The notes under the pieces were generated by a model that was given only the letters and a program-made list of their open reading frames with translations, did no database searches and had not been told where the DNA came from. Positions 32,302 to 42,086 of a stretch of 42,086 nucleotides of DNA are shown here, one piece after another. Each line of letters begins with the position of its first letter. Position 1 is the stretch's first letter. Origin of the DNA: Bacillus sp. AZ43 (lineage in GTDB: Bacteria; Actinomycetota; Actinomycetes; Mycobacteriales; Geodermatophilaceae); assembly GCA_004570425.1 (NCBI GenBank), contig SPQJ01000038.1:1-42086 (forward strand). Direction: 5' to 3'. The position numbers and the translations under genes were made by a program.

Positions 32302-32307
32302 CTGGGG

Positions 32308-32349
32308 TGGCTCCCCCGACTGGACTCGAACCAGTAACCCTGCGATTTG
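32308..32349 (-). other. 3' fragment of a tRNA gene (probable attachment site of an integrated element)
   Basis: Read on the minus strand the segment gives AATCGCAGGGTT, then a perfect T arm (ACTGG-TTCGAGT-CCAGT), then the acceptor strand CGGGGGA, discriminator G and encoded CCA. The matching 5' acceptor strand TCCCCCG and the D arm are absent upstream, where the sequence is unrelated. A tRNA beginning with U1 (Asn or Gln type) is implied. Such 3' pieces, cut at the anticodon loop, are the usual att sites left by tyrosine integrases. No integrase gene is in the window. Confidence 0.7.
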
Positions 32350-32826
32350 ATCTTGAGGCGATTGCTCGCGTTGGCACGCGTTGAACACGCAGGTCAGATA
32401 CGGTGCGGAGCGTTGGCTGCGACGGTTGCGAGCGACTGGTTGCGAGAGTATTGGGTGCCTAAAGAGTGCCTGTCACAGTGGCTCGCCGGCAGCTTCGATC
32501 ACCGGGTCCGGCGCCTCGGTGGGCCGCCGAAGATCCACTCTTCGCCACTGACTTCACCCCTTCCTCGACGGGTGTCCCACCGGGGCAGCGTGACACCCCG
32601 CGCGGCTGACATCCCGTCGTCGCGATCGAGACAGAAGCAGAGTTCCTCGTAGCCACTCCCCCACGGACCAACGAAACCCCACGACGCGACACGACTCGCC
32701 TCGACCGGAGCTTCGCTAGACATCTGATCCATCGCCGCCGGACCCGACTTTTCGGCGGGGTGTCACCAAACGGCTCCGAAAAGCGCCTTCTCCCGGTGAG
32801 AGCAACTACTCACCAGCGGAGCAGGG
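32350..32826. other. Gene-poor stretch next to the tRNA fragment
   Basis: These 477 bases have lower GC than the rest and no ORF with convincing coding character. A 9-base direct repeat GGTTGCGAG occurs at 32424-32432 and 32438-32446; short repeats near an attachment site can be integrase arm-binding sites. A 77-residue minus-strand frame at 32499-32732 exists but is not supported. Confidence 0.4.
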
Positions 32827-33216
32827 ATGTGCGGTCAGCCGAGACGACGGACGGCGGCAGCCCCTGCGCTGGCACCGTCCCACGTCTCCCCTGCTTGCTG
32901 CGGCGTGCTGCAGGACCTCGTCGACTGCTACAGCGGCGACACCCACCGTCTGCTCACCGACCTGGCCGACGTCATCGGCGCCAGCATCGCCTACGTCGAC
33001 CGGCCCACCGTCGAAGCGCACCTCGAGCGGCCCCTGTCCGACCGGGAGTGGGCCGTCACCGCCCAGCAGTTCACGGCCATGGCCTTCGACGACCACGTCG
33101 GAGACGCCGGCAGCCTGCGCACCGACTGGATCGAGGACGTCCTGGGCAGGGCCGGCGTACCCGGTCGTGGCCACACCGGTCAGCCCGTCGCCGCATCTCC
33201 ATTGGCCGGGGCATGA
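32827..33216 (+). CDS. Hypothetical protein, mobile-element type
   Basis: A 129-residue frame whose last 100 residues have coding character (VLQDLVDCYSGDTHRLLTDL, TVEAHLERPLSDREWAVTAQ). The first 26 residues (Pro/Arg/Cys-rich) look doubtful; a GTG at 32905 is an alternative start, though ATG at 32827 has GGAG 5 bases upstream. Its stop overlaps the next start (ATGA), so the two genes form a unit. I recognise no domain. The setting next to a tRNA fragment and a phage-like gene suggests cargo of an integrated element. Confidence 0.6.
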   Translation: MCGQPRRRTAAAPALAPSHVSPACCGVLQDLVDCYSGDTHRLLTDLADVIGASIAYVDRPTVEAHLERPLSDREWAVTAQQFTAMAFDDHVGDAGSLRTDWIEDVLGRAGVPGRGHTGQPVAASPLAGA

Positions 33217-34277
33217 GCGCCACCCGTACCTGCCCGGCCTGCGGCTACAGCAGCACGTACGCCAGCGACGCCCTCGCCGACCTTCACCACGCGCGCCATT
33301 CCTGTGCGAAGCACCAGCGGGCCACCGAGCGAACACGTCGCCGTGTCCAGCGCGCTCAGAGCCGGGTGAGGCGGGACTGCACCCATCCGCGTGCTCGGCA
33401 TGTGCACGGAACCCGTGCCGCCTATGTCAAGGACCGCTGCCGATGCACCGACTGCACCGCCGCCAACACCGCGTCCGGCCGTGCCGTGCACCGCGCGCAG
33501 ACCTTCGGCCGCTGGCGGCCGTTCGTGGACGCGGCCCCGGTGCGCGAGCACCTCCGCGCGCTACGGGCCGCCGGCATCGGCGTCGAGCAGATCGCCATGC
33601 TCGCCGGCCTCTCCACCAGCCACGTCCGCGAGCTGGCCAACCCCGGGCGCGACGGCAACCCAGGCATCCGGCGGGTCCGGCCCGAGACCGCCCACCAGGT
33701 CTTACGCGTTCGCGTCGACGAGGCCAATCGTGCACCGCGCAGTCACGTCGGCGCCACGGGCACTCGTCGCCGGCTGCAGGCCCTGATCGCCATCGGATGG
33801 CCCCACGACGAGCTGGCCGCCAGGCTCGGCCGAAACTCAGCTGGTCTCCGACGCAGCATGCTCAGCGACGCCGTCACCGCGCGAACCGCCCAGGACGTCA
33901 CCGCCCTCTACGAACAGCTGTGGAACCTCCGCCCACCACACTCCACCGACGACCAGCGCGCCGCCGCCGACGCCGCCCGCGCCTTCGCCGCCGAACGCGG
34001 CTGGCTGCCACCTCTGGCCTGGGACGACATCGACACCGACCCAGAGCCTCAACACCACGCTCGGCGCGTAGAGAAGGACGACGACCTCGACGAGATCGCC
34101 ATCGAGCGCGCCCTCGCTGGCGACGGCGTCCGCCTCGAGCACCTGACCCCCGCTGAGCAGGACGAAGTCGTCCGGCGCCTCACCGAACGCGGCGAGTCCA
34201 TCCGCGACATCGCCCGGCAGCTTGCCACCACCAAACGAACCATTTCCCGCCGGCGCGCATCCATCAACGCCGCGTGA
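33213..34277 (+). CDS. Zinc-motif and multi-HTH DNA-binding protein, actinophage-like
   Basis: A 354-residue protein. The N-terminus has CPACGY (7-12) with downstream HHARHSC (25-31), a likely zinc finger. Next is the motif HGTRAAYVKDRCRCTDC (65-81), a pattern often found in actinophage proteins. Three segments look like helix-turn-helix: about 110-134 (IGVEQIAMLAGLSTSHVREL), about 195-218 (WPHDELAARLGRNSAGLRRS) and the C-terminal IRDIARQLATTKRTISRRRA. It is probably a regulator or element-maintenance protein. The start is ATG at 33213 overlapping the upstream stop. Direction is opposite to the nuo genes. Confidence 0.75.
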   Translation: MSATRTCPACGYSSTYASDALADLHHARHSCAKHQRATERTRRRVQRAQSRVRRDCTHPRARHVHGTRAAYVKDRCRCTDCTAANTASGRAVHRAQTFGRWRPFVDAAPVREHLRALRAAGIGVEQIAMLAGLSTSHVRELANPGRDGNPGIRRVRPETAHQVLRVRVDEANRAPRSHVGATGTRRRLQALIAIGWPHDELAARLGRNSAGLRRSMLSDAVTARTAQDVTALYEQLWNLRPPHSTDDQRAAADAARAFAAERGWLPPLAWDDIDTDPEPQHHARRVEKDDDLDEIAIERALAGDGVRLEHLTPAEQDEVVRRLTERGESIRDIARQLATTKRTISRRRASINAA

Positions 34278-34370: not shown

Positions 34371-35840
34371 TCAGCTCGGCAGGAGGACAGCGAGCCAGAC
34401 GCCCGACCAGATGCCGAGAAGCAGGGACGCGACGGCGGCCGTATGGAGAACGACGATCGGCTCGAGCACGACACGCTGCGCCGTTCCCGCGGAGGTGCCC
34501 GGCCCCGTCCCCCGGGTAGCCGCCGTCGTGCCTTCGCTGGCGGCGACTCCCGTAGCGGCGGGAGCGATCCAGCGCAGGTAGTAGAAAAGGCTCGCTACCG
34601 TGTTGATGGCTGCTACGACCACCAACCAAGCAAGCCCGCCATCCCAGGCCGCCGCGAAGACGGCGAGCTTGCCGACGAAGACCGCCGTGGGTGGAGTGCC
34701 GACGAGGCCGAGCAGGCAGACGACGAGGCTGACGACGAGCCATCGGTGGCGTCCGACGGCGGTCGCCCAGTCGGTGATCGTCCGGGCCGCCGGGGCCGCC
34801 GCGACGGCGGCGAAGGCGCCGATGTTGGTCACCGCGTAGCCAGCCAGGTAGATCGCCAGGGCCGGAACGGCGAGATCGGTGTGGGCCGCGACGGCGACGA
34901 CCATTAACAGGTAGCCGACCTGGCTGACCGTGGAGTAGGCCAGCAGGCGGAGTACGTCGGTCTGGTTGAAGGCGGCCAGGTTGCCCAGGGTCATGCTGGC
35001 CGCGGCGATGACGCCGACCAGGAGTGGCACGTCGAGCGGGACGTCGGCGAAGGGCTCGGCGAGCAGTCGGAAGGCCGCTGCCACCGCGCCGATCTTCGGG
35101 ATCGTGGTGATGTAGGCGGCCATCGGCGGAGTGGTGCCGGCCGTGACGTCGGGAACCCAGAAGTGCACCGGGACGGCACCGGCCTTGAAGGCGACCCCGG
35201 CGAGCACGCCGAGGACGCCGACTGCAAGCAGCGCGGGTGGGGCCTGCGGCAGCAGTTCGCCCAGCTCGGGATAGCCGGTGGTGCCGGAGGCGAGCACCAG
35301 GGCGGCGACGCCGACGAGCATCAGCACGCCCACGAAGGCACCCATGAGGTAGTACTTCATCGTCGCCTCGACACCTGCGGAGTCCTTGGCGAAGCCGGCC
35401 AGCGCGTACAGCGGGACGCTGGCCAGCAGATACGCGGCGACGAGCAGCAGCAGATCACCGCTCGCGGCCAGCGCGATGCTGCCGAGCCCACCGAGCAGCA
35501 TGAGGACGTAGGCCTCGGTCTCCCGCGGGTGTCCGGCCAGCGAGGCCGACGCCAGCCAGACCAGGACAGCCACGCCCAGCGTGACCACGATGCGCACGAC
35601 GCCAGTGGTCGTGTCGACGACCCAGGTGCCCTCGAACACCCGCTCCGCAGGCTCCGGCAGCGCGACAGCTGCGGCGATCGCACTGGCCAGGCAGGCGGCG
35701 GTGACCAGGAGCCGGACCCGCCACTGCCGGTGCTGCGGGGTCCAGAGGCCCAGCAGCAGGCCGCCGACGGCGCCGAGAAGCAGGAGCAGTTCGGGAAGCA
35801 GAGCGAGCACCCGCTCGCCACCTCCGGACATGCCGGTCAC
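34371..35840 (-). CDS. nuoN: NuoN-like complex I membrane subunit (antiporter family)
   Basis: A 489-residue membrane protein with about 13-14 helices and the antiporter-family core: FKAGAVPVHFWVPDVTAGTTPPMAAYITT followed by IPKIGA (helices 7-8) and LGNLAAFNQTDVLRLLAYSTVSQVGYLL. The helix-5 glutamate, normally in an ELxSLPLY segment, is replaced: here the segment reads YLLASVPLY with Leu138. The helix-5 to helix-6 MKYYLMGA segment is kept. It would pump protons in ordinary complex I; loss of the Glu suggests an altered path. The start is GTG at 35840, overlapping the nuoM stop by four bases. Confidence 0.9.
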   Translation of the reverse strand: MTGMSGGGERVLALLPELLLLLGAVGGLLLGLWTPQHRQWRVRLLVTAACLASAIAAAVALPEPAERVFEGTWVVDTTTGVVRIVVTLGVAVLVWLASASLAGHPRETEAYVLMLLGGLGSIALAASGDLLLLVAAYLLASVPLYALAGFAKDSAGVEATMKYYLMGAFVGVLMLVGVAALVLASGTTGYPELGELLPQAPPALLAVGVLGVLAGVAFKAGAVPVHFWVPDVTAGTTPPMAAYITTIPKIGAVAAAFRLLAEPFADVPLDVPLLVGVIAAASMTLGNLAAFNQTDVLRLLAYSTVSQVGYLLMVVAVAAHTDLAVPALAIYLAGYAVTNIGAFAAVAAAPAARTITDWATAVGRHRWLVVSLVVCLLGLVGTPPTAVFVGKLAVFAAAWDGGLAWLVVVAAINTVASLFYYLRWIAPAATGVAASEGTTAATRGTGPGTSAGTAQRVVLEPIVVLHTAAVASLLLGIWSGVWLAVLLPS

Positions 35841-37435
35841 CGGCCCACCAACTCCACCACCGCCATGGCGGCCGGCTCCAGCACGTCCAGCAGGACCCGC
35901 GGAACCAACCCGAGAATCACGGCGAGTACCAGCAGCGGGACGACCGAGGCCACCTCGTGACCACGCAGGTCCTGCATCCGGGTCGCCGTCCGCGGCCGGA
36001 CGGCGGTCGCCGTCGTGCCGTCCGCACGGTCCGGATCCGGGCCCTCCGCCAGTTCGTCGGGGTCTGCGCCGGATGGGACGACGGTGTCGCCGGTGAGCAG
36101 CCGCTGCAGGGCCAGCAGGAAGAGTCCGGCGGTCACGAGGATGCCGACGACGGCGATCACCGTGGCCACCGGCGCGGCCTGCAGGGCTCCGGTGAACACC
36201 TGGAACTCGGCGATGAACCCGGAGAACCCGGGCAGCCCCAAGGAGCCGAACGCGGCGACCGCGAAGCAGGCGGCGAAGACCGGCGCCGGCCGGGCCAGTC
36301 CACCCCAGCGGTCGAAGGCGTAGGTGTGCCCGCGGGACCACAGCACGCCGCTGAGCAGGAAAAGCGCGGCGGTGAGCAGGCCGTGGCTGACCATCTGGTA
36401 CATCGCTCCGACCGTGGCCACGGTCCGCGCTCCCTCGTCAGCGGAGGCCAGGAGGCCGGCCGCGCCCAGCCCGAGGAGCACGTAGCCCATGTGGTTGACC
36501 GACGTGTAGGCGATCATCCGCTTGACGTCGGTCTGGGCGAGGGCGACGAAGGCGCCCCACAGCACGCTGATCACCCCGACGACGACGGCGACCATGGCCC
36601 ACCGCTGCCAGGCCTCGGGCAGGATCGGCATCGCGATCCGCACGAACCCGTAGGTGCCGAGCTTGAGCAGGATGCCGGCGAGGACGGCGGACCCGGCGGC
36701 GGGGGCGTCGGTGTGCGCGTCGGGCAGCCAGGTGTGGAACGGGAACAGCGGCGTCTTCACAGCCAGGCCGATACCGATCGCCAGCAGCACCAAGCCGCCG
36801 GCGACCGGGGAGTCCGCGAGCGGAGGGTTGGCTGCCAGCGCCACCATGTCGAAGGTCCGCTCCTCGCTGCCGAGGAACAGCCCGATGAAGCCCACCAGCA
36901 GCGCCAGGGACCCGATGAAGGTGTAGAGGAAGAACTTCAGCGCGCTGCGCCGGGCGTTGCCGTGTCCCCAGCCGGCGATGACGAAGTACATCCCGACGAT
37001 GGACAGGTCGAAGAAGACGAAGAACAGGATCAGGTCCAGCGAGGCGAACGTGCCCAGGCAGGCTGTCTGCAGGAAGAGGAACAGCGCCGCGTAGGTGTGC
37101 GGCCGGTCCGGCTCGCGCAGCGAGTAGATCGCGCAGGCCAGGAACAACACCCCGGTCAGTGCCAGCAGCGGCAGGGAGAGCCCGTCGACGCCGATGTGGT
37201 AGCCGGCGTCGACCGTGGGAATCCACTGCAGGTCCACCTCGTACGCCAGGCCGTCGACGACTCCCGAGGCTCCCTCCCCCGGATCGAAGCCCCACCACAT
37301 CCAGCCGATCAGCGCCAGGTCGACAGCGGCGGCGGCGATCCACAGCCCGATGGCCGTCCGGCCGCTGAGCCCGCGGGCGGCCAGCAGCACGCCGGCGGTC
37401 ACCAGCGGCAAGAAGATCACAACGGTCAGCAGCAC
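35837..37435 (-). CDS. nuoM: NuoM-like complex I membrane subunit
   Basis: A 532-residue membrane protein of the antiporter family. Conserved pieces: HIGVDGLSLPLLALT (80-94), VKTPLFPFHTWLPDAHTDAP (helices 7-8), LLKLGTYGFVRIAMPILPEA and FVALAQTDVKRMIAYTSVNHMGY. In helix 5 the acidic residue is Asp143 (FFVFFDLSIVGMYFVIAGWG) where the canonical protein has Glu in FWEMMLVPMYFLIALWG. A charged Arg/Asp-rich loop of about 40 residues near the C-terminus separates the last helices. The start is GTG at 37435 with GGAGG 10 bases upstream. There is a 79-base gap to nuoL. Confidence 0.91.
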   Translation of the reverse strand: MLLTVVIFLPLVTAGVLLAARGLSGRTAIGLWIAAAAVDLALIGWMWWGFDPGEGASGVVDGLAYEVDLQWIPTVDAGYHIGVDGLSLPLLALTGVLFLACAIYSLREPDRPHTYAALFLFLQTACLGTFASLDLILFFVFFDLSIVGMYFVIAGWGHGNARRSALKFFLYTFIGSLALLVGFIGLFLGSEERTFDMVALAANPPLADSPVAGGLVLLAIGIGLAVKTPLFPFHTWLPDAHTDAPAAGSAVLAGILLKLGTYGFVRIAMPILPEAWQRWAMVAVVVGVISVLWGAFVALAQTDVKRMIAYTSVNHMGYVLLGLGAAGLLASADEGARTVATVGAMYQMVSHGLLTAALFLLSGVLWSRGHTYAFDRWGGLARPAPVFAACFAVAAFGSLGLPGFSGFIAEFQVFTGALQAAPVATVIAVVGILVTAGLFLLALQRLLTGDTVVPSGADPDELAEGPDPDRADGTTATAVRPRTATRMQDLRGHEVASVVPLLVLAVILGLVPRVLLDVLEPAAMAVVELVGR

Positions 37436-37514
37436 GATCTCGACACCTCCTCGCTGACGCTCGTCGGCACCGAGCTCGACGACGCTGTACCCATGCGTGA
37501 CCTCACAAGTTCGG

Positions 37515-39455
37515 TCACGGGCGCACCACGAGCAGGAGGACGAGCAGGAACCCGAGACCGATGACGGCCTGGGCGTAGTACTGGTGCAGCAGCCCGGTCT
37601 GCGGGCGACGGGCCGCGCTTCCGGCGCGGCGGAACGCGGTCGCCGTCGCACGGACCGCGCCGTCCACCACTCCGACGTCGAGCCGCGCGGACCCGGCGGC
37701 AGCACGGCGGGTCGTCGAAGCGACACCCGACACCGCCCGGTCCAGGACGCCATCGTCGGCACGTGATGCCCATCCTGCGAGCCGTCGCACGCCGACAGCC
37801 ACGCCTACCACCGTCCGGTCGATCAGCTTGTCGTCCACGGTGGCCAGCGCGCGCGCCACTGCCATCGCCGGCCATGGCGAGAGCAGCCGCCCCAGCCCGG
37901 CCCACGAGGCGAGCGGACTCCGCGAGAGCTGCTCCATGACGGCAGGGCGCTCCCGAACCACGGCGACGGTCAGCCCCAGGACCACCAGCGCGAGCGCCCC
38001 GGAGAACACCAACTCCCCCACCCCCGGCGAGGGCTCACCCTCCGCGCCCAGGACCGCCTTGAGGCCCTCGGCCACAGCCGGCAGCGCAAGCACACCCAGT
38101 CCGGCGGCGAACACAGCCAGCACGCCTGCGACGACAGTCGTGAGCGCCGGGATGCGCCGGGTGCCCGGTTCCTCCTCGTCGAGAGACTCCTCCCCTGCCG
38201 GCCGGGCGAGGACGACGGCCAGGATCCGACCGGCGTAAACCGCCGAGACCGCAGCGGCGGCCAGGCCCACCACTTTCAGCGCCATTCCGTCGACCCCGGC
38301 GAGGACCTCGTCCTTGGTGGCCCACAGCGACAGCGGTGGCACGCCGGCCAGCGCGAGGGCGGCGACGGTGGCCGCTGCCCCGATGCCCGGATACCGGCGG
38401 GCGGCGCCCCGCAGGCCGGCCAGGTCCTTGGTGCCCAGCGCGGTGAGCCAAGCGCCTGCGGCGACGAAGAGCCCGGCCTTGACCGCGGCGTGCGCGACCA
38501 GCTGTGCTGTGCCGCCCGCGGTGGCGCCCACCCCGGCGGCGAGCACGACGAAGCCGATCTGCGCGGCGGTGCTGGCCGCCAGCAGCTGCTTGAGGTCGGA
38601 CTGCGCCACGGCCACGGCGCCCAGGACGAGCGCGGTCAGCACACCGGCCCATGCCGCCGCCGTCGCGGCCCAGCCGGTCGCGGCAAGCAGGGGCTGCATC
38701 CGGATCAACAGGTACCCGCCGGCGGCCACCATCGTGGCCGAGTGCAGCAGCGCGCTGACGGGGCTGGGGCCCTGCATGGCAGCCGACAACCAGGCGGAGA
38801 AGGGCAGCTGCGCGGACTTGCCGAGCGCGGCGACGAGGACCCCGGCGGCGGCGACGTCCGCCCAGCCGCCGTCCGCTGCGGACAGGTCGGCGAGGGCCAG
38901 GCTGCCGGTCGCGGCCAACGCGGCCCCCGCGGCGACGTACAGGCCGAGGTCCCCGGCCCGCGTGGTCACGAACGCCCGCGTCCCGGCGGCCAGCTTGCCC
39001 GGCTCTTCCCAGTGGTAGCCGATGAGCGCGTAGGAGGTCGCGCCCATGACCTCCCAGGCCAGGAGAAGCGTGGGCAAGGTTGCCGCGGTGACCGTCGCCA
39101 GCATGGCCGCGACGAAGAGCAGCAGATAGCCGAAGAACCGTCCGCGTGCGGCATCCGCCGGCAGATCCGCGACGGCGAAGACGGTGACCAGCAGGGCGAT
39201 CCCTGCGATCAGCAGCACCAGCACGGCGGAGAGCCCGTCGACGACCAGGCGGAGATCCCCACCCTCGACGATCCCGAGGAAGGGCACCGACAAGCGCGGT
39301 CGGCTCCCGGCCACCAGCGCTGCCAGCGCTGCGGCGGCACCGATGACGGCCACGGCCAGCGGGCCAGCGGCGCGGTCGGCCCGCCGTCCGACGGTCAACA
39401 GCCCCGCCCCGGTCAGGGCGGGGAGCAGCACCAGGGCGGCGAGGGCGACACTCAT
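37515..39455 (-). CDS. nuoL: NuoL-like complex I membrane subunit
   Basis: A 646-residue membrane protein, the largest antiporter-type subunit. Kept features are the helix-5 Glu135 in LLLAWEVMGATSYALIGYHW, TRAFVTTRAGDLGLYVAAG, GKSAQLPFSAWLSAAMQGPSPVSALLHSATM and VAVAQSDLKQLLAASTAAQIGF. The C-terminal region includes helix 15, a long lateral stretch (about 540-620) and a last helix HQYYAQAVIGLGFLLVLL. It would couple redox-driven motion to proton transfer. The start is ATG at 39455, in an ATGA overlap with the nuoK stop. Confidence 0.93.
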   Translation of the reverse strand: MSVALAALVLLPALTGAGLLTVGRRADRAAGPLAVAVIGAAAALAALVAGSRPRLSVPFLGIVEGGDLRLVVDGLSAVLVLLIAGIALLVTVFAVADLPADAARGRFFGYLLLFVAAMLATVTAATLPTLLLAWEVMGATSYALIGYHWEEPGKLAAGTRAFVTTRAGDLGLYVAAGAALAATGSLALADLSAADGGWADVAAAGVLVAALGKSAQLPFSAWLSAAMQGPSPVSALLHSATMVAAGGYLLIRMQPLLAATGWAATAAAWAGVLTALVLGAVAVAQSDLKQLLAASTAAQIGFVVLAAGVGATAGGTAQLVAHAAVKAGLFVAAGAWLTALGTKDLAGLRGAARRYPGIGAAATVAALALAGVPPLSLWATKDEVLAGVDGMALKVVGLAAAAVSAVYAGRILAVVLARPAGEESLDEEEPGTRRIPALTTVVAGVLAVFAAGLGVLALPAVAEGLKAVLGAEGEPSPGVGELVFSGALALVVLGLTVAVVRERPAVMEQLSRSPLASWAGLGRLLSPWPAMAVARALATVDDKLIDRTVVGVAVGVRRLAGWASRADDGVLDRAVSGVASTTRRAAAGSARLDVGVVDGAVRATATAFRRAGSAARRPQTGLLHQYYAQAVIGLGFLLVLLLVVRP

Positions 39456-39769
39456 CCGCGCAGGTCCGTGGCCATGTCCACCATGTCGACCTGCCGCGCC
39501 CGGTAGATGGCAACGGTGACAGCGAAACCCATGGCCATCTCCACCGCCATCACCACCAGAGCGACGACAACCAGCACCTGGGCATCGGGCAGCTCGGGGG
39601 CGAGGAAGTACCAGGCCGCTCCCCCGGCCAGCAGCACACCGTTGAGGACCAGCTCCAGGCCCATCATCACCATGACGATCGACTGCTGGGACAGCGCGCC
39701 GAACAGACCGACGGCCACCAGGGCGACGGCGATGGTCAGCACGATCTGCAGCACGAGCTCGGCGGTCAC
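39452..39769 (-). CDS. nuoK: NuoK-like complex I membrane subunit
   Basis: A 105-residue protein with three transmembrane helices. The two buried glutamates used in proton transfer are both present: Glu39 in MMGLELVLNGVLLA and Glu77 in VVMAVEMAMGF. The C-terminal tail (ARQVDMVDMATDLRG) is a few residues longer than usual. The start is GTG at 39769 within a GTGA overlap with the nuoJ stop, and the gene ends in the nuoL start; tight coupling runs along the whole operon. Confidence 0.93.
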   Translation of the reverse strand: MTAELVLQIVLTIAVALVAVGLFGALSQQSIVMVMMGLELVLNGVLLAGGAAWYFLAPELPDAQVLVVVALVVMAVEMAMGFAVTVAIYRARQVDMVDMATDLRG

Positions 39770-40347
39770 CGCGGCAACCCTCCGGGCACCGGATCGTCCG
39801 GCCGCGACGCCTTGAGGTCCGCACCGAACCGGTCGTAGCGGCCGCGGGCGGTGGCCAGGACGGTGCCGGCGAGGATCGTCGCGAACAACGAGATCCCGAT
39901 CACCAGCATGACCAGCATGTGGCTGCCCATGATCGCCTCGCCGAGCTGGCGGGTGCTGTCGGCGGGGCGGGACGGGTTCCGCGTCGGCCAGTCGATCGTC
40001 CAGATACCGACGGTGAGGACGACGAAGGTCGCGGCGCCGATCACTGCTGAGCCCTTGGCGTTGTGCACCATCGTCATCGGCATGAGCCCGGCCGGGTTCA
40101 TCATGAACATGATCATGAAGACGGCCATGACCGCCATCTCCATCGTCATCATCAGCGCCGTCACGACGGCCAGGTAGACCAGGTCCAGGGCCAGCAGCAC
40201 TCCCGCCACCGCGAGGAACGACGCGAGCAGCGCGAAAGTGGCCCGCGCCATGGAGTCGACGACGAACACGGCGATGCCCGCGGCCACCGACAGGGCGCCG
40301 AGCACGGCGACCGCCGCGATCGCCCACGCGGACAAGTCGCTCAGCAT
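39766..40347 (-). CDS. nuoJ: NuoJ-like complex I membrane subunit
   Basis: A 193-residue protein with five transmembrane helices. The helix-3 region is VYLAVVTALMMTMEMAVMAVFMIMFMMNP, unusually rich in methionine compared with the common YVGAVMVLFLFVVMML pattern; it takes the place of the pi-bulge helix used in coupling. The start is ATG at 40347, ten bases after the nuoH stop, so no nuoI gene fits between. The C-terminus is polar (RFGADLKASRPDDPVPG). Confidence 0.88.
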   Translation of the reverse strand: MLSDLSAWAIAAVAVLGALSVAAGIAVFVVDSMARATFALLASFLAVAGVLLALDLVYLAVVTALMMTMEMAVMAVFMIMFMMNPAGLMPMTMVHNAKGSAVIGAATFVVLTVGIWTIDWPTRNPSRPADSTRQLGEAIMGSHMLVMLVIGISLFATILAGTVLATARGRYDRFGADLKASRPDDPVPGGLPR

Positions 40348-40357
40348 GCCGTCCCCC

Positions 40358-41299
40358 TCATGCGTAGAACCCGTTCAGGACGAGCACGGCGACGATCAGC
40401 GCCTGGAGGAGAGTCAGCGGGACGAGGACCATCCAGCCGACCTCTACCGTGCGGTCGGGCCGCAGCACAGGCACCCGCCGTCCCGCCCAGACCAAGGTCG
40501 CGATGACCGCCAGAGTCTTGACCAGGAACCACACCGGGCCGGGCAGCCAAGGCCCGGCGTCGCCGCCCAGGAACAGCGCGGTAGCCATGGCGGCCGCAGC
40601 GCCTAGGAACACCGCCCGGCCCACATCGACGAGCAGCCGGTCCACCCCAGACAGCTCCGAGGTGACGCCCCCGGCGATGTCGGGCCCTGCGGGTGCGGCG
40701 AACGGACCCCAGAACGCGAAGGCGGCGGCGCTGGCCACGAAGACGACGAAGGCGACCGGCATCGTCACCACGAACCACAGCCCCTCCTGCGCGGTGACCA
40801 CATCGGTCGTCCGAAGGGAGCCGGCCGCCAACCCGGCCGTGATGAGCGCAAACATCAGCGGCAGCTCATAGGCCAGGCCCTGGGCGAGAAACCGGTACCC
40901 CCCGGTCAGGGCATGGACGGCGTTCGGGCCCCACCCGAGCAGCCATACCGCGGCCCAGAGCAGCGCCTCCATGGCGTTGAACCACACGAGGTCGGCGCTG
41001 GTGGACCACAACGTCCGGCCACCCACGGGCACCACCGCCAGCGAGAGCAGCGCCAGCGTCGGCACGGCGGCGCAGCCCAGCCGCCACAGCAGCCGGTCCG
41101 GCGCCAGCGTCGTCCGCCGCTGCTCTAACAGCAGACGTGCACCGTCACGAAGAGGTGCGGCGACCGTTCCCAAGGTTTCGCCGAGAACGACGGCGCGGTC
41201 AACCGCTGCCACTACGAGGCCCAGGACCAAGCCGACCGCCACGACTCCGAGAACTGCCGGTGCCAGTCCCCACGCCTCGGCCAAGGTCTGCTCAGGCAT
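40358..41299 (-). CDS. nuoH: Divergent NuoH-like complex I membrane subunit
   Basis: A 313-residue, eight-helix protein that in complex I forms the quinone chamber beside the peripheral arm. Recognisable parts are APLRDGARLLLEQ (48-60, matching QPLADGxKLLxKE), GGYRFLAQGLAYELPLMFAL (133-152) and GWMVLVPLTLLQ. Missing are the RPGPNRVGP segment and the acidic loop PFDLPEAESELVAGY: at 199-220 it reads PFAAPAGPDIAGGVTSELSG, with the run of glutamates gone. That loop is thought to feed protons to the quinone site, so a normal quinone reaction is doubtful. The start is ATG at 41299, overlapping the upstream gene by eight bases. Confidence 0.86.
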   Translation of the reverse strand: MPEQTLAEAWGLAPAVLGVVAVGLVLGLVVAAVDRAVVLGETLGTVAAPLRDGARLLLEQRRTTLAPDRLLWRLGCAAVPTLALLSLAVVPVGGRTLWSTSADLVWFNAMEALLWAAVWLLGWGPNAVHALTGGYRFLAQGLAYELPLMFALITAGLAAGSLRTTDVVTAQEGLWFVVTMPVAFVVFVASAAAFAFWGPFAAPAGPDIAGGVTSELSGVDRLLVDVGRAVFLGAAAAMATALFLGGDAGPWLPGPVWFLVKTLAVIATLVWAGRRVPVLRPDRTVEVGWMVLVPLTLLQALIVAVLVLNGFYA

Positions 41300-42086
41300 C
41301 TACGTGCTCCGATGCAGGCGCCGTCGACACGGGGCGCAGGTCGAGGCTGGCCACCATCAGCCGCGCGCTCCCGATCTCCGCGCCCTCCACCAGGGCCGCG
41401 ACGTCGGCCAGTGATGTCGCGGGCAAGCCTTCGACCGGCTGCCCCGACGCCATGTCGCACCAACGCCGGACCCGGCCCAGGACATCTCCCCCGGACCCGC
41501 GCCCCCCGATGCCGCCGGCCGTCCACGCCAAGGTCCGGGACCGGCTCACCCGCCGCGCCACGGCCTCGGCGAGCCGCTGCGCCTCCTCTCGATTGGCCCG
41601 CTCGGCCATCTCGTCCCGGGCGCGGCGCGTATCTCGGGCAGCCGTCGGCCAGCCGCTCACGTCGAGGAAGCGGGCGAGCCGGTCCAGCGCCGCCGCCTGG
41701 GGGGCGCGCTCCGGTTCTGCGGCCGGGAGGGTGTCGGCATCGAGCCAAGCCAGCTCTGCGGAGGTGAGGACGTCACCCTGCAGGTTCGCCCGCAGCACCA
41801 GACCTGTCGGCCAGCCCGGAAGCACTGGCCCGAGCGCGACCTCGAGGACGTCGAGCTCGAGGCCGTCCCGGTCCGGGCCGGTCGAGGCCATCGCCAGCCC
41901 GGCCACCTCACCACCGTGATGCATCCCGTGGTCCATGCCCTCGTGACCACTGCCGTGGTCCATGCCCTCGTGACCACTGCCGTGGTCCATGCCCTCGTGA
42001 CCACTGCCGTGGTCCATGCCCTCGTGACCACTGCCGTGGTCCATGCCCTCGTGACCACTGCCGTGGTCCATGCCCTCGTGACCACT
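41292..42086 (-). CDS. Protein with His-rich 9-residue repeats, upstream partner of nuoH (5' end outside window)
   Basis: The frame is open to the window edge, so 264 residues of the C-terminal part are visible. It starts with perfect repeats of MDHGSGHEG (five full copies and part of a sixth), then MHHGGEVAGL, then an ordered region. The segment ALGPVLPGWPTGLVLRANLQ followed by GDVLTSAELAWL recalls the start of NuoD (GPQHPSTHGVLRL...LDGE), but all catalytic NuoD residues are absent, so the comparison is weak. The middle is charged and helical (DTRRARDEMAERANREEAQR). The repeats could bind Ni, Cu or Zn. It overlaps nuoH by eight bases and must be part of this operon. No firm function. Confidence 0.75.
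   Translation of the reverse strand, partial: SGHEGMDHGSGHEGMDHGSGHEGMDHGSGHEGMDHGSGHEGMDHGSGHEGMDHGMHHGGEVAGLAMASTGPDRDGLELDVLEVALGPVLPGWPTGLVLRANLQGDVLTSAELAWLDADTLPAAEPERAPQAAALDRLARFLDVSGWPTAARDTRRARDEMAERANREEAQRLAEAVARRVSRSRTLAWTAGGIGGRGSGGDVLGRVRRWCDMASGQPVEGLPATSLADVAALVEGAEIGSARLMVASLDLRPVSTAPASEHVDA
41928..42086 (+). repeat. 27-bp perfect tandem repeat (minisatellite) encoding MDHGSGHEG
   Basis: The unit GTGGTCCATGCCCTCGTGAC plus CACTGCC (27 bases) repeats at 41928, 41955, 41982, 42009, 42036 and 42063. Five copies are complete and identical at every base; the sixth is cut by the window edge after 24 bases. Since 27 is nine codons, copy changes keep the frame. Identity of third positions points to recent expansion or gene conversion. 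Confidence 0.97.

Follow-up and report, generated by a model that had tools for sequence, protein, structure and literature searches.

One membrane arm is common to complex I, hydrogenases and the Mrp antiporters, and the way in which protons in this arm are set in motion by an event far away is an open question. In complex I, the E-channel consists of NuoA, NuoJ, NuoK and a part of NuoH, and its gate lies in helix 3 of NuoJ (PMC10212512). In Mrp, E706 of MrpA corresponds to Y59 of NuoJ, and the E-channel coincides with the Na+ exit path (PMC7419157). Operons designated nuoAHJKLMN have been published as marine adaptation genes (Penn and Jensen 2012, Kocuria flava S43 in 2018, and Streptomyces SM17/SM18 in 2019; PMC3314556, PMC6002675, PMC6676996). 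Statements on published papers refer here to the available parts of their text. An operon of this kind is described below from the window, the whole stretch of 42,086 nucleotides of contig SPQJ01000038.1 (C42) from Bacillus sp. AZ43, a genome placed in Geodermatophilaceae. Sequences and predicted models suggest, with a probability of about 0.5, that this module is a redox-dead descendant of complex I with a role in metal tolerance as a copper(I)/silver(I)-linked proton antiporter.

Module composition and the B'-D' fusion

The genes nuoH', nuoJ', nuoK', nuoL', nuoM' and nuoN' lie in this order, all on the minus strand. Each product falls in its own Nuo family in Pfam/NCBIfam; only NuoM reaches the NCBIfam cut-off shown (TIGR01972), and the other Nuo proteins of the window are below. 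A previous sequence-only reading of the window had reported this arrangement, the absence of nuoI between nuoH and nuoJ, and 4-base overlaps at most junctions. The arrangement and the absence of nuoI were borne out, with just 10 bases between H and J. The overlaps are seen at two of the five junctions (J/K and K/L), while the L-M and M-N gaps are 79 and 5 bases with the starts used here, and the upstream fusion gene overlaps nuoH by 8 bases. The fusion and the copper setting were invisible to that reading because the contig ends within a repeat in the linker.

The other half of the fusion gene and nuoA sit at the start of contig C72 in the same genome (G000; 4.06 Mb, 78 contigs). In related genomes the region is unbroken, and the full set consists of nuoA, the gene for the NuoB'-linker-NuoD' fusion, and nuoH, J, K, L, M and N. 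As judged from sequences and models, the membrane arm lacks none of its subunits (A, H, J, K, L, M, N), and the connecting module survives solely as the fused B'-D' protein. A standard nuoI with nuoB to nuoG upstream, which the sequence-only reading had named as evidence for an ordinary complex, is not there: the upstream genes on C72 are nuoA and the B' half of the fusion. E. coli NuoB, CD, E, F, G and I gave no match in the first 19.9 kb of C72 or in the window, and NuoI, E, F and G are absent among the annotated genes in 12 plasmid stretches. The complete canonical operon for which that reading had proposed to search is present on contig C12 of the same genome, with A, B, C, D, E, F, G, H, I and J-N; its NuoH is the second, ordinary one of this genome.

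B' has the NuoB fold and D', which is shortened, has the NuoD fold, based on a profile of relatives and a predicted model of one relative. With hhalign alone, the comparison of D' with NuoD is not significant (E of 0.017 and 0.026 for two co-linear pieces). Foldseek alone found nothing at E <= 0.001, with NuoB chains as the top matches at 4e-3. Pfam names two of four plasmid fusions; it names neither the Arthrobacter nor the M. avium plasmid fusion, nor that of the window. The identity of D' is considered settled because of the fold comparison together with the two Pfam hits in relatives. In three plasmid records (L270, L275, L274) the fusion is annotated in pieces or with a late start, probably caused by its repeats.

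Three kinds of linkers stand in the place of NuoC between B' and D'. Linkers from Actinobacteria contain MDHG-type repeats or acidic stretches. Those from Halomonas, Acuticoccus and Roseivivax have a short Met motif, GGxGMMGGxPYGRPMAM. Those from Sulfitobacter, Nitratireductor, Paracoccus and Rubrobacter have heavy-metal-binding domains (CPMHP...CPKCGM) and His runs; PF19335 was run on Sulfitobacter SK025 alone, and the other linkers of this kind were assigned by motif and record annotation. Such different metal-binding solutions at one site suggest selection for metal binding. The repeat copies on the window contig and on C72 differ by one base per unit (GGC vs GGG). Because the assembly breaks inside the coding repeat, it does not fix the true copy number of the 27-bp unit.

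Residues of the redox site, proton path and E-channel

The module is almost certainly redox-dead. An adjacent Cys pair of the N2 type within the first 60 residues was found in 0 of 100 B'-D' fusions, and the first 100 residues contain 0-4 scattered Cys (n=100). L268, as annotated, has no Cys, and L033 and L036 have one. In the aligned fusions, GPVLPxWPxG or GPFFPxxPxG stands in place of the quinone motif GPxHPxxHG, whose His is gone. The alignment agrees with the sequence-only reading that NuoH lacks the RPGPNRVGP and PEAESEL motifs. Acidic residues at the D72, D213, E216, E218 and E241 columns of NuoH are gone in nearly all sequences, and E228 stays Glu/Asp; the N-terminal columns and some columns of plasmid NuoH are unstable (E36 and E157 differ between alignments), and nothing rests on them. 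Where the sequence-only reading had considered "another electron input or none", the evidence favours none over another input.

Proton-path residues are retained in part. NuoL and NuoK keep their acids, with Asp at the E72 column of NuoK in 3 of 111 sequences. The E144 column of NuoM is Asp in 104/104. The E133 column of NuoN, in transmembrane helix 5 (TM5), is Leu in 104 and Phe in one of 105 sequences, which means that the Glu is lost in 105/105; the K217 column is Glu in 24/105. The helix-5 pattern of the sequence-only reading (Glu135 in NuoL, Asp143 in NuoM at the E. coli E144 column, Leu in NuoN at the E133 column) and its two retained NuoK glutamates are seen in the alignments. The NuoN substitution stands, and its number becomes 135, instead of 138, with the start used here. 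Glutamates at shifted but equivalent positions had been the alternative offered by that reading. The alignments show substitutions, and the family alignment, in which the same columns are substituted, rules out an alignment shift as the cause.

Enrichment of Met is restricted to J, K and A, with means of 9.7%, 9.9% and 5.5%. The means in H, L, M and N are 2.4, 1.6, 2.1 and 1.8%, below the three canonical copies compared. Canonical NuoJ contains 1-7 Met (30 matches, the loci returned from a 60-genome sample) and the variant 15-21 (111 sequences, 99 distinct), and the ranges are disjoint. For NuoK, the ranges of 2-10 (29 canonical matches) and 8-12 (variant) overlap. Counts over 111 sequences include repeats (99 distinct NuoJ, 91 distinct NuoK), as some genomes entered via two collections. 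In the aligned part of NuoA, L033 has five Met, against two in the canonical copy of the window's genome, two in that of one relative, and one in E. coli.

At least 95% of the 111 NuoJ' sequences have Met at positions 66, 67, 71, 74, 78, 80, 82 and 83 of helix 3, where position 70 is Glu. Positions 67, 71, 74, 78 and 82 fall within 80 degrees on an ideal helix, forming one face beside the new Glu. The E. coli NuoJ columns for the ladder are V58, Y59, I63, L66, V70, M72 and L74, with A62 for the Glu. All of these columns are Met, with Glu at A62, in ten plasmid relatives (from Alpha- and Gammaproteobacteria, Arthrobacter, Mycobacterium and Rubrobacter). The ladder is also visible in 11 more gammaproteobacterial loci, with M80 missing once. 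Plasmid NuoJ' from Halomonas and Arthrobacter (L219, L218) have His-rich C-terminal tails.

Distribution, gene neighbourhood and mobility

NuoH' was found in 45 of 112 Geodermatophilaceae genomes, in two clades (rows at E <= 1e-70). NuoJ' is present in 26 of 394 genomes of the window's class, corresponding to 17 of 138 genera, all at E < 1e-67. In the Lysobacter class, the threshold of E <= 1e-15 is reached by 18 of 369 genomes, narrowly (9e-16) by one of these. Plasmid records matching NuoJ' number 31. The module order is kept in relatives from Actinobacteria, Alphaproteobacteria and Gammaproteobacteria. One genome scan gave 434 loci, of which 80 were kept; all eight genes are in one order at 74 of these, and the other six are on short or cut contigs. 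The gene pattern is beyond chance because of this 74/80. A decaying duplicate is ruled out by the conservation of gene order and Met ladder across phyla. Some genomes (G005, G013, G026, G058, G922, G342) have two NuoH' or NuoJ' matches and are judged by these to carry two module copies. A third, more distant group of NuoH with 31-38% identity occurs in smaller, fragmented Geodermatophilaceae genomes (G066-G069, G071-G074; L054, L055).

Csp, CsoR and CueR have established copper roles. The copper-type set used here consists of heavy-metal P-type ATPase, DUF305, Csp/DUF326, CsoR, multicopper oxidase and DUF1541 clusters, with representatives identified. Genes of this set flank 19/30 Geodermatophilaceae loci versus 0/40 control regions (Fisher 8.6e-10), although related loci are not independent, and the controls are regions of 20 kb at places chosen by hand in 20 of the same genomes. 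In clade 1, copper-type neighbours are seen at 16/17 loci. DUF1541 clusters were found at 0/30 Geodermatophilaceae loci. Outside this family, copper-type genes are present at 47/70 loci, where some contigs are cut and there is no control of their own. Among 12 plasmid neighbourhoods, picked from the plasmid search matches, ten contain copper or heavy-metal genes, and in two of them cueR lies within about 1 kb of the operon.

On C72, nuoA is followed by an ArsR/SmtB-type regulator. Beyond it, transposases, two DUF305-type proteins, a CcdA-like and a TlpA-like protein appear to be encoded, as read from their sequences. An ArsR-type gene is upstream, divergent or some kb off, in 19/30 Geodermatophilaceae loci. 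This regulator is perhaps the module's own metal sensor. The ArsR/SmtB-type regulators (L033, L043, others, and the start of C72) bear an N-terminal HAHPV motif, and they are present also without copper genes.

A 38-bp segment of the window (97%) matches the 3' end of the tRNA-Asn gene at C72:103835-103908, and a tyrosine integrase adjoins the full tRNA. Assuming that C42 and C72 are joined at the repeat, a putative island of ~114 kb is delimited, with the module near one end. A long plus-strand open reading frame (32763-34274) downstream of nuoN, with a resolvase-type helix-turn-helix, lies inside the putative island end.

Table. Coordinates in the window and characteristics of the module and associated features
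Feature	Position	Strand	Characteristics
nuoH'	40358..41299	minus	Quinone-loop acids lost (D213, E216, E218 columns); E241 column is Arg in 111/111
nuoJ'	39766..40347	minus	193 residues, 17 of them Met
nuoK'	39452..39769	minus	E39 and E77 (both membrane Glu) retained; additional conserved Met at M33, 35, 36, 74, 78
nuoL'	37515..39455	minus	Proton-path residues retained; H334 column is Gln here and in 43/104
nuoM'	35837..37435	minus	Asp at E144 column; remaining checked proton-path residues retained
nuoN'	34371..35831	minus	Leu for TM5 Glu; Lys retained at K217, K247, K395 columns
nuoB'-linker-D' fusion, C-terminal part only	41292..42086	minus	B' and nuoA on contig C72, same genome
27-bp tandem repeat, 6.0 copies, coding (MDHGSGHEG)n	41926..42086	minus	Metal-binding-type linker between B' and D'
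Met ladder of NuoJ' helix 3, residues 66-83	40099..40152	minus	M66, 67, 71, 74, 78, 80, 82, 83 and E70
NuoJ' loop after helix 3	40063..40083	minus	M89, M91, M93, H95
38-bp copy of tRNA-Asn 3' end	32306..32343	minus	Putative attachment site of module-bearing island

Proposed function and comparison with known systems

The view of the sequence-only reading that the complex is not an ordinary NADH:quinone oxidoreductase, and rather a second, specialised assembly of the ion-translocating type, is supported. It is likely that its function is tied to copper or silver, and the chances are evenly balanced that passage of Cu(I)/Ag(I) is coupled to protons. Methionine is a soft-metal ligand. A tentative model, to which we give slightly less than even odds, is a metal transporter built from complex I, in which the E-channel, remodelled into a Met ladder, would serve Cu(I)/Ag(I), be loaded by the metal-binding pseudo-quinone module of fused B' and D', and be driven by proton movement in the three antiporter-like subunits. 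For the proposed copper(I)/silver(I)-linked antiporter, the His/Met/Asp or heavy-metal-binding linker would collect cytoplasmic-side Cu(I). The ion would then cross via a thioether-lined path at the H/A/J/K junction, the site of Na+ movement in the related Mrp antiporter and of the E-channel in complex I, and proton flux through L, M and N would be coupled to this passage. The direction would be export, as suggested by the resistance setting alone.

Several observations weigh against this antiporter. The TM5 Glu lost from NuoN lies at the Na+/H+ coupling point in Mrp, and therefore the coupling step must differ from that of Mrp. The NuoJ' helix (57-82) in the predicted model is of low confidence (pLDDT 66). 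Among 100 actinobacterial-type linkers, five have no His, both Salinispora copies included, and 16 have two or fewer. These Salinispora copies (L111, L134) have no metal-type linker, yet retain the Met ladder, and no copper gene is in their fetched flanks. Copper-type neighbours are seen at just 3/13 loci of the Geodermatophilaceae clade 2, and multicopper oxidase at 0/30 Geodermatophilaceae loci. No copper-type gene is in the stretch seen at 23/70 loci outside this family, and the Rhodococcus and Paracoccus plasmid stretches (2/12) have no copper or heavy-metal genes.

Some of these points fit a Na+ or K+/proton antiporter, or a proton pump, for salt or pH stress, with the copper neighbours as fellow travellers on mobile islands. 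The papers on Salinispora, Kocuria and Streptomyces suggested a Na+ or H+ pump in marine adaptation, many plasmid carriers are marine, and the Salinispora copies lack both metal-type linker and copper neighbours. However, soil and other carriers have the same gene order and Met ladder, conserved Met is of no obvious use for Na+ or K+ in general chemistry, and the presence of copper-type genes at 19/30 loci, against 0/40 controls, speaks against it. This explanation is unlikely, while retaining some weight. A little less probable is a metal-gated proton channel, in which metal bound to the B'-D' cap would start proton flow for control of pH or proton-motive force under copper stress, and no metal would cross. 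Quinone-cavity changes accompany the NuoJ gate in complex I (PMC10212512), and the linker sits on the pseudo-quinone module and varies in type; such a channel leaves unexplained the five-Met face of NuoJ helix 3 and the Met enrichment in three subunits.

Uptake or delivery of Cu(I), such as supply of cuproenzymes, in place of resistance is improbable. The sequence gives no direction, and several plasmid loci have multicopper oxidases and cupredoxins nearby, but many of the genes nearby (P-type ATPases, CsoR or CueR, Csp) belong to efflux, storage or sensing types. The retained folds of NuoH, NuoB and NuoD would suit a second complex I passing Cu(I) electrons to quinone; the missing adjacent N2 cysteines, the missing quinone-motif His and the replaced NuoH acids make it very improbable. 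That the module is a spare membrane arm working with borrowed canonical NADH and Q modules is largely refuted, despite the canonical operon in the window's genome. The module supplies its own B' and D', and a NuoB-family match is absent in 13 of 16 other carrier genomes, hand-picked so as to cover genera in which complex I was expected to be missing; therefore, in those 13, no canonical peripheral arm is there to borrow.

If the copper(I)/silver(I)-linked proton antiporter is real, it would be a machine of the complex I family with a transition-metal substrate. In such a natural version, which has no redox part, a dead quinone site and new coupling-site ligands, the pump would be set apart from the redox step, and the driving of L, M and N by the E-channel could be tested directly. 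Bacterial metal resistance would gain a proton-coupled copper system, carried by plasmids and islands of at least two phyla, and both the annotation as NADH-quinone oxidoreductase and the interpretation as marine adaptation would have to be corrected.

As far as the literature searches show, the operon itself is already in print only as the marine adaptation genes nuoAHJKLMN. The published plan (nuoA, "hypothetical protein", H, J, K, L, M, N) is the same, and the locus set here includes loci labelled Salinispora, Kocuria and Streptomyces. In contrast to our analysis, the available text of those papers does not recognise the hypothetical protein as B'-D' or mention the Met ladder, and proposes a Na+ or H+ pump. 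The word "copper" is absent from the available text of PMC3314556, and that of PMC6002675 places copD copper genes in another region, unlinked to nuo. No paper on the fusion identity, the Met ladder or the copper link was found in the literature searched, outside which most subscription journals lie.

The module resembles complex I (NDH-1, NuoA-N) in its seven membrane subunits A, H, J, K, L, M and N in the same order, in most proton-path Lys/Glu of L, M and K, and in the presence of NuoB and NuoD folds. It differs in that the operon has no NuoI, C, E, F or G, that B and D are fused and degenerate without the N2 cysteine pair and the quinone-motif His, and that it has the Met ladder in J/K/A, the lost TM5 Glu of NuoN and the copper setting. 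The Mrp antiporter is likewise redox-free, with L-, M/N-, K- and J-like subunits and a cation site at the NuoJ-like helix. The homology list in the available text of its structure paper gives no NuoH counterpart, whereas the module has NuoH, A and B'-D', and the Mrp site holds carboxylates where that of the module is Met-rich. By annotated operon content, the module does not have the make-up of Mrp (MrpE, F and G present, no NuoH/NuoA), and the J' profile finds chains of the NuoJ type and, at E <= 1, none from Mrp. The Cys ligands of the NuoD-like subunit and the Fe-S of the NuoB-like subunit that mark group 4 hydrogenases/FHL/MBS are not shared, as fusions with 0 or 1 Cys exist. CusA and CopA are copper(I)/silver(I) exporters with a Met-lined metal path; the module would share this path as a principle, with folds and energy sources that differ from theirs.
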